From Candidatus Cloacimonadota bacterium (lineage in GTDB: Bacteria > Cloacimonadota > Cloacimonadia > Cloacimonadales > Cloacimonadaceae), in the NCBI GenBank assembly GCA_030154085.1, contig JASKKR010000014.1, positions 1 to 47,455 on the forward strand: a DNA stretch of 47,455 nucleotides. The letters run 5' to 3'. Positions 11,785 to 17,726 of this stretch are shown here, piece after piece. The notes beneath the pieces were generated by a model. That model saw only the letters and a list, made by a program, of their open reading frames with translations. It was not told the DNA's origin and did no database searches. The first letter of the stretch is position 1; every line of letters starts with the position of its first letter. A program made the translations under genes and the position numbers.

Positions 11785-11812
11785 TTGACACAAAAATGGA
11801 CTGCGAAATAAT
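11785..11812 (+). promoter_or_regulatory. promoter of infC-rpmI-rplT
   Basis: A perfect TTGACA (11785-11790) and AATAAT (11807-11812, five of six) lie 16 bases apart. Transcription would start near 11819, giving a leader of about 150 bases before infC that begins just ahead of the CCGTCTGCTTC segment. Confidence 0.65.
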
Positions 11813-11818
11813 GGAAAT

Positions 11819-11968
11819 AAATGAAGCCGTCTGCTTCTGCCTTGCTGCCTTGAATGTGCGTGCAGGGCTCGATAGACTGAATTTCAGTAAAATTTGTTGT
11901 GAAGCAGGCGGAATTTCTCAAAGGAAATTCCGCCTGCTTCGTTAACCGGTAAAAAGGAGGTTCTTATA
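11819..11968 (+). promoter_or_regulatory. structured infC leader with competing stems
   Basis: A perfect 16-bp stem pairs GAAGCAGGCGGAATTT (11901-11916) with AAATTCCGCCTGCTTC (11925-11940) around an 8-base loop. The 5' strand of this stem can instead pair over 11 bases with CCGTCTGCTTC at 11827-11837 (ten Watson-Crick pairs and one G-U), right at the predicted transcript start. The two pairings exclude each other. No T run follows, so the switch, if real, may act on translation or through a bound protein. infC leaders in Bacillus are controlled by L20, and rplT is the third gene here. Confidence 0.6.
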
Positions 11969-12592
11969 ATCCGGATTAAACGTTACAAGGCAAAAACCAA
12001 AGAGGTTGTGCCCAAAGAAAGAATTAACCATCAGATTACAGCGGAAAAAGTTCGGTTGATCGGTCCTGATGGTAAACAGGTCGGTGTTGTATCCCTACGT
12101 GAAGCGCAACGATATGCGGATGAAGCGGAGCTGGACTTGGTAGAGATTTCCCCTACTGCTGATCCACCCGTATGCCGTGTTTTGGATTTTAGTAAATACT
12201 ACTTCCAGAAGGAAAAAAGAGCTCGGGAAGCCAAGAAAAAACAGCATGAAGTAGAAGTCAAAGAGATCAAATTTGGTCCCAATACAGAAGAACATGACTA
12301 TAACTTTAAGAAAAATAACGCTATAAAGTTTTTAAGACAACACAACAAAGTAAAATTCACTGTGCGGTTTAGAGGACGTCAGATGGCTCATAAAGAGCTA
12401 GGTTATCGCGTTTTAGACAAGATTAAAGAAGATCTGGCTCTGATTGCCGATGTCGATCACGAACCGGTAAGCGATCGCAATATGCTCTCTATAACTGTCT
12501 CACCTAAAAAGGATATCGATCGCATCCTCGCGGAAACGACATTAAGCCAACAAGAAAAAACTGATACAGGAAGCGACACCGAAAAGCCATAA
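11969..12592 (+). CDS. infC: translation initiation factor IF-3 (non-AUG start)
   Basis: This ~207-residue IF3 prevents premature subunit joining and checks start codons. Family blocks are INHQITAEKVRLIGPDGKQ, GVVSLREAQRYADEAELDLVEISP, PPVCRVLDFSKY, then the C-terminal domain VKEIKFGPNTEEHDY and KVKFTVRFRGRQMAHKELG. AAGGAGG ends at 11960. The best-spaced codon in frame is ATC 11969 (8 bases on), with ATA 11966 as an alternative. A GTG at 12008 would lose the basic N-terminal peptide and has no ribosome-binding site. Rare starts such as AUU are the rule for infC and let IF3 repress its own translation. The C-terminal tail is extended and acidic. Confidence 0.9.
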   Translation: MRIKRYKAKTKEVVPKERINHQITAEKVRLIGPDGKQVGVVSLREAQRYADEAELDLVEISPTADPPVCRVLDFSKYYFQKEKRAREAKKKQHEVEVKEIKFGPNTEEHDYNFKKNNAIKFLRQHNKVKFTVRFRGRQMAHKELGYRVLDKIKEDLALIADVDHEPVSDRNMLSITVSPKKDIDRILAETTLSQQEKTDTGSDTEKP

Positions 12593-12657: not shown

Positions 12658-12852
12658 ATGCCAAAGATCAGAACGAATCGATCTGCCGCTAAGCGCTTTA
12701 AGTTAACCGGCACCGGAAAGATCGTGCGCCATCACGCTAAGAGTGCGCACATCAAAACCAAAAAATCACCCAAATTGAAACGTAATCTTCGTTCAAGCGC
12801 CATTGTTCATAAAGCTGACGAGAGAAGAGTTTACCGGATGCTTGGATTATAG
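12658..12852 (+). CDS. rpmI: 50S ribosomal protein L35
   Basis: This 64-residue, highly basic protein has the L35 signature: KIRTNRSAAKRFKLTGTGKI, then HHAKSAHIKTKKS, ending RRVYRMLG. It lies between infC and rplT as in most bacteria, with AAGGAG ahead of the ATG. Confidence 0.97.
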   Translation: MPKIRTNRSAAKRFKLTGTGKIVRHHAKSAHIKTKKSPKLKRNLRSSAIVHKADERRVYRMLGL

Positions 12853-12864
12853 AGGAGTATTGAG

Positions 12865-13215
12865 ATGCCTAGAAGTACAAACAATGTAGCAGCCCATCGC
12901 AGAAGAAAAAAATATACGCTTGCAGCTAGAGGCTATTTTGGTCGCAGAAGTAAAACTTATCGCGTTGCTCGCCAGACGGTTGAGCGGGCTATGGTCTTTG
13001 CGTTTGCTCATCGCAAATTGAAGAAACGTCAGTTTCGCAGTCTATGGATTGCACGCATCAATGCTGCTTGCAGAATGAATGACATGAGCTATAGTAGATT
13101 TATTAATGGACTGCATAAGTCCAACATTGAGATAAACCGCAAGACCTTAGCTCATCTGGCATGGCATGATGCCCCGGCGTTTGCACGCTTGGTCGAAATT
13201 GCCAAAAACGCCTAG
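12865..13215 (+). CDS. rplT: 50S ribosomal protein L20
   Basis: This 116-residue L20 binds 23S rRNA early in assembly and represses its own operon in several bacteria. Family blocks are RRKKYTLAARGYFGRRSKTYR, the helix AMVFAFAHRKLKKRQFRSLW, then RINAACRMNDMSYSRFINGL and INRKTLAHLA. It starts 12 bases after rpmI with GAGGAG upstream. A terminator-like hairpin follows. Confidence 0.97.
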   Translation: MPRSTNNVAAHRRRKKYTLAARGYFGRRSKTYRVARQTVERAMVFAFAHRKLKKRQFRSLWIARINAACRMNDMSYSRFINGLHKSNIEINRKTLAHLAWHDAPAFARLVEIAKNA

Positions 13216-13270
13216 TTGTTTTACTATGCCTTAAGCACTCCTGGGAGTGACAGGTTGATTTAATATTAAG

Positions 13271-13303
13271 AAAGCGGTTTTTTCTTAAAACCGCTTTTTA
13301 CTT
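13271..13303 (+). terminator. terminator after rplT
   Basis: AAAGCGGTTTT (13271-13281) pairs perfectly with AAAACCGCTTT (13287-13297) around a 5-base loop, then TT-A-C-TT. It lies between rplT and pheS and should end or attenuate the infC operon before pheS. Confidence 0.75.
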
Positions 13304-17491: not shown

Positions 17492-17496
17492 ATAAT

Positions 17497-17665
17497 GCCT
17501 GCGGAATTCGTGATATGGATTGCATAAAAGCCAAGAAATAAGAAGGGAGTCGAGCCATGGGTGGCATGCGAGCCGACTTAGTCTCGGATACATAAAGCCC
17601 ACAAGGTAGATTCCCACCTGCAAAACGGCTTTGTAAAAAGTCAAACATACACGGTTCACGCGGGC
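17497..17665 (+). ncRNA. ssrS: structured RNA, probable 6S RNA
   Basis: The ~235-base gap between zapA and rny has no open frame but a closed secondary structure. GCCTGCG (17497-17503) pairs with CGCGGGC (17659-17665). After an internal loop CGTG (17509-17512) pairs with CACG (17650-17653). AAAGCC occurs twice (17527 and 17594), and either copy can pair with GGCTTT (17627-17632). AGTCG/CGACT and GCCA/TGGC make an inner hairpin near 17548-17577. A rod with a large central bubble, the ~170-base length and the zapA neighbourhood fit 6S RNA, which binds RNA polymerase. No covariance test was possible, so the name is inference. Confidence 0.55.
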
Positions 17666-17726
17666 ACTTAATTTCGCTATTTGGGATATCTTTCAGATAG
17701 CATAAATAGATTGTAAGGAAAACATT

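Follow-up and report, generated by a model that had tools for sequence, protein, structure and literature searches.

A Cloacimonadota homologue of the L20 leader known from Firmicutes, with a terminator U-tract taken up into the hairpin stem

In a Candidatus Cloacimonadota genome, a gap of 290 bases separates the infC-rpmI-rplT operon from a divergent DEAD-box helicase gene and contains a homologue of the L20 leader of Firmicutes, with conserved, covarying helices, two competing pairings and a hairpin that has lost its U run. The gap lies in the window, the whole stretch of 47,455 nucleotides that was analysed; its assignment to Candidatus Cloacimonadota is borne out by named relatives. The preferred reading, to which we assign a probability of about 0.68, is a Firmicutes-type L20 leader in which L20 would promote the downstream hairpin and repress the operon through weak or factor-assisted termination; we infer L20 binding, the direction of control and the readout from the sequence. 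The leader and operon comprise the following elements.

11785-11812, + strand: promoter-like site TTGACA-16-AATAAT, a consensus match only
11820-11821, + strand: AA dimer directly 5' of hairpin H1, a candidate for the second half of the L20 site, without variation among 39 family leaders
11823-11837, + strand: hairpin H1, GAAGC(CGUCU)GCUUC, 100% paired; at order level, 3 of its 5 pairs show two-sided changes
11827-11837, + strand: antiterminator strand CCGUCUGCUUC, putative competitor for 11901-11911 (own-versus-swapped pairing test; shuffles)
11839-11868, + strand: hairpin H2, GCCUUGC...GCAGGGC, predicted L20-binding hairpin (RF00558 alignment; covariation)
11901-11940, + strand: terminator-position hairpin TH, 17 Watson-Crick pairs, reaching through the former U-tract (folding; covariation)
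11935-11949, + strand: former U-tract region UGCUUCGUUAACCGG, in relatives UUUUUCAUUUCCGG (comparison with relatives)
11946-11974, + strand: predicted ribosome-binding-site hairpin, CCGG...GGAGG loop...CCGG, the same in both switch states and conserved in sequence
11954-11960, + strand: Shine-Dalgarno sequence AAGGAGG, invariant in the family alignment
11969-12592, + strand: infC (IF3), AUC start codon (Pfam IF3_N and IF3_C)
12658-12852, + strand: rpmI (L35)
12865-13215, + strand: rplT (L20), proposed sensor protein
13269-13299, + strand: intrinsic terminator with U5 after rplT (terminator scan), a contrast case in the same genome

Two segments, CCGTCTGCTTC (11827-11837) and CCGCCTGCTTC (11930-11940), had been proposed in the sequence-only reading to compete for a common partner, GAAGCAGGCGG (11901-11911), and these positions were confirmed. 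All three are single-copy on the + strand of the window, and the motif CCGYCTGCTTC is present in the leader in two copies with one common partner. The downstream stem (11901-11917/11924-11940) is indeed perfect, with 17 Watson-Crick pairs, one more than the 16 first counted, and a U-G pair on the loop side; the upstream competitor pairing has 11 pairs, one of them U-G. Such a mutually exclusive layout was found in 0/300 dinucleotide shuffles at 10 or 11 bp and in 35/300 at 8 bp, and folding of the 150-nt stretch yields -61.1 kcal/mol (z = -6.8), a stability reached by none of 200 shuffles. The promoter-like site would fit a transcript start near 11819. Many relatives have a TTGAC element ahead of the leader, at a rather constant distance from it, and lack a clear TATAAT -10; the Cloacimonadota phylum may have an unusual -10.

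The Rfam screen at its default cut-off annotated nothing at the leader. With a relaxed threshold, 11813-11947 aligned to positions 1-127 of RF00558 (L20_leader; 28.8 bits, E 8.6e-4 in 401 bases), with H1 as the first hairpin, 11839-11868 as the second and 11901-11940 at the position of the terminator. The gathering cut-off of RF00558 is 58.7 bits, a score reached neither by the window's leader nor by any of the 118 relatives searched, many of which had sub-threshold matches immediately before infC (the best ones scoring 31-53 bits). The leader resembles the B. subtilis infC-rpmI-rplT attenuator of RF00558 in its position ahead of that operon, in the order of H1, H2 and terminator-position hairpin, in the full-length alignment, in an antiterminator pairing incompatible with both H1 and the terminator, and in the consecutive G-C pairs and AA dimer published as features of L20 leaders (PMC7247131), the dimer being provisionally placed at 11820-11821. 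It differs from it in belonging to another phylum, in scoring far below the cut-off, in having no U-tract of a Rho-independent terminator and in a stem lengthened through that tract. Strict filing under RF00558 is impossible, since the score falls short of the cut-off and the U-tract is absent; the window's leader is homologous to the L20 attenuator of Firmicutes, with a modified output end in this genus. The RF00558 model also has a sub-threshold match (34.9 bits) just upstream of infC at 1332-1465 of a contig labelled Oscillospiraceae (L145). The 23S gene, sought for a comparison with the organism's own L20 site, was not found in the assembly.

Other L20-related RNAs are less similar. The L20-Deltaproteobacteria leader (RF03126) shares the proposed L20 ligand and rRNA mimicry, but has a different scaffold (PMC7247131) and matched a Geothermobacter locus (L150), not the window's leader. 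The E. coli L20 operator, a pseudoknot and hairpin before rpmI, likewise provides L20 autoregulation of L35 and L20, but acts on rpmI-rplT translation and does not control infC (PMC10931766).

The architecture is conserved throughout the phylum. All 88 complete leaders have an H1-like hairpin, then (C/U)(A/G)CCU as the start of H2, then a downstream hairpin, before infC, with G050 among them recognised by the covariance model only; in G077 and G017, H1 is cut off by contig ends. In the family alignment A1 (39 leaders), 94.7% of the cells of H1, H2 and TH are paired, and both sides of 12 pairs have changed; this covariation exceeded all slid versions and was equalled in 0/500 shuffles. Two-sided changes were found in 20/26 pairs of the order/class alignment (47 rows; 0/500 shuffles), which was produced by the family covariance model and is biased toward the structure of that model. 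The family-only covariance model gave full-length matches at 45/48 order/class infC loci and at 0/26 infC loci of other phyla. AA stands immediately 5' of H1 in 85/87 leaders (script count), and two consecutive C-G pairs of H2 are near-invariant (46/46 and 45/46 in the order/class alignment A3).

The antiterminator was evaluated in an alignment-free manner, by pairing each H1 strand with the terminator arm of its own genome or of other genomes. Own pairs were more stable than swapped ones in all 87 leaders (-13.2 versus -10.4 kcal/mol), in the 41 of the family (-15.8 versus -15.1 kcal/mol) and in the 46 of the order/class set (-11.0 versus -9.0 kcal/mol), with 0/10,000 permutations as good in each case; relatedness inflates such tests, although the changes are distributed across the phylum. 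The sequence-only reading had recognised the layout of a switch and proposed covariation in relatives as its check. The end-to-end RF00558 alignment supports that layout, H1, H2, TH and the antiterminator pairing covary, no complete relative lacks either competing segment, and compensatory changes are plentiful. In the most distant, class-level leaders (L085-L091), the H1 strand seems able to pair with the loop of the terminator hairpin instead of its 5' arm (e.g. CUGCG/CGCAG), which would be a possible different antiterminator geometry.

The output end of the leader has changed. As had been noted from the sequence, there is no T run after the stem of the window's leader (GCTTCGTTAACCGG), and the terminator scan found no terminator there. 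This absence had been taken to separate the leader from the Bacillus L20 attenuator, a distinction that does not stand as one between devices: the same leader carries a U5-U9 tract in close relatives, so the difference is one of descent with modification. The U count after the stem is mostly 6-9 in order-level relatives and 5 in most family members, and nearly all relatives outside one two-genus clade have 4-9 U. The tract is interrupted in 14/41 family members, as CCUGCUUC or CCUGUUUC, the shortest U run of the 41 being that of the window's leader; because siblings share the feature, an assembly error is excluded. On a tree of IF3, L35 and L20, the interrupted tracts are confined to that clade (19 rows, support 100/98), where they occupy 14 of the 19 rows, and at least five changes between interrupted and intact states are needed.

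Substitutions from UUUUUC to UGUUUC or UGCUUC complete the pairing with GAAGCA, in the arm fixed by the antiterminator, and so lengthen the stem. The longer stem is kept in sister leaders by the paired changes GAAGC/GCUUC, GAAAC/GUUUC and GGAAC/GUUCC (G000, G011 and G006), and is followed by a new U run in G004, by 3-4 U in others and by GUUAACC in the window's leader. Compensation of the lost U run by a stronger hairpin is not claimed: hairpin energy and U count are correlated (Spearman 0.79), but it is the substituted tract itself that forms the extended pairs, and the comparison comprises only 3-5 phylogenetically independent pairs, with inconsistent direction. Tentatively, and at somewhat less than even odds, the L20 leader of this clade may have abandoned intrinsic termination altogether, the lengthened hairpin serving another readout (a Rho- or NusA/NusG-dependent stop, ribosome loading or decay), with intermediate stages among the relatives.

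Under the preferred reading, at low L20 levels the 3' portion of H1 (11827-11837) would pair with the emerging arm 11901-11911 as an antiterminator, and transcription would go on. Free L20, as it accumulates, would bind H1/H2 and freeze H1, leaving 11901-11911 to pair with 11924-11940, so that infC-rpmI-rplT would be repressed. Since the hairpin extends through the old U-tract in this genus, the stop would be a weak one, dominated by the hairpin or assisted by NusA, NusG or Rho. In B. subtilis, L20 binding favours the terminator over the alternative structure (PMC10931766, PMC6097659), and NusA/NusG-dependent terminators tolerate interrupted distal U-tracts (PMC8060035). For the window's leader, the hairpin state is predicted to be favoured over the antiterminator state by about 12.6 kcal/mol, whereas the difference is roughly 0-6 kcal/mol in most U5 relatives; with such a gap, only a kinetic decision made during transcription is plausible. 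Predicted openness of the Shine-Dalgarno sequence is 0.51 in both states of the window's leader, because the ribosome-binding site is predicted to fold as its own hairpin, and it is likewise unchanged in most relatives; this favours a transcriptional readout and argues against a simple translational one. The genome encodes a Rho domain protein, and a NusA-, NusG- or Rho-assisted transcriptional readout is possible in the window's leader.

A shift of the readout to translation or mRNA turnover, by which the long hairpin would hinder 30S loading or direct RNase processing and L20 would control infC in that way, is rather unlikely. It would suit the lost U run and a hairpin that ends 13 nt before GGAGG; the uncleaved B. 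subtilis leader has been reported to inhibit infC translation unless cut by RNase Y (PMC3997798), and an RNase Y gene is present in the window. Against it stand the equal openness values, with the ribosome-binding site in its own hairpin either way, and the outer UUAC...GUAA pairing, which would carry the stem up to the Shine-Dalgarno sequence and does not covary. On these two grounds, sequestration of the Shine-Dalgarno sequence was rejected as the output of the switch.

That the leader is a decaying remnant, in which L20 may still bind while terminator regulation has been lost in the lineage and the hairpin influences only mRNA stability, is improbable. The extreme shortness of the U run and the repeated changes of the tract on the tree are what such decay would leave, but H1, H2 and the antiterminator strand are intact in the window's leader and its genus, and the paired changes in the lengthened stem suggest that the stem is being kept.

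The sequence-only reading had named L20 or IF3 as the ligand, and the RF00558 homology favours L20. Sensing of IF3 by the leader stems has very little to recommend it beyond infC being the first gene of the operon, since the RNA is homologous to an L20-binding leader, keeps the conserved features of the L20 site, and is accompanied by a separate route through a non-AUG start codon. IF3 autoregulation is known to act through such a codon. The infC start codon is AUC in 38, AUA in 2 and AUU in 1 of the 41 family members (in the window ATC at 11969; the mechanical ORF caller wrongly gives GTG at 12008), and IF3 autoregulation more likely proceeds through this conserved start codon, separately from the leader stems. 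An origin of the repeats by chance or as a mobile inverted repeat is negligibly probable and was rejected: long near-perfect palindromes can be such elements, but this one is single-copy in its own genome, its layout did not recur in the shuffles at full length, and its place is conserved across the phylum.

The infC ribosome-binding site is predicted to lie in the hairpin loop CCGGUAARAA-GGAGG-UUCUUAUAAUCCGG, which is near-invariant in the family; together with a second infC codon that is CGG in 40/41 family members, this suggests a constraint beyond coding. Compensatory changes in this hairpin (11946-11974) were not seen on inspection. A single in-frame TAG is present in the IF3 matches of several same-class genomes (G109, G112, G115 and G113), and a TAA in some of those from the order level. 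A 6S RNA (RF00013, 50.3 bits) was found at 17493-17670, downstream of pheST and just upstream of the RNase Y gene.

Leaders of ribosomal protein genes common to several phyla are unusual among new finds, and L20 leaders have been described in Gammaproteobacteria, Firmicutes and Deltaproteobacteria, in an account by Eckert et al. (2020) that does not mention Cloacimonadota (PMC7247131). Our literature search, which covered few subscription papers, found no report of an L20 leader in Cloacimonadota. The present leaders thus extend to another phylum, below the default Rfam cut-off, a regulator that had been called narrowly distributed to Firmicutes (Babina et al. 2018, PMC6097659). They also form a graded series of siblings in which the terminator U run decays while the sensor and the switch stay, making a change in the output of a regulatory RNA directly testable.
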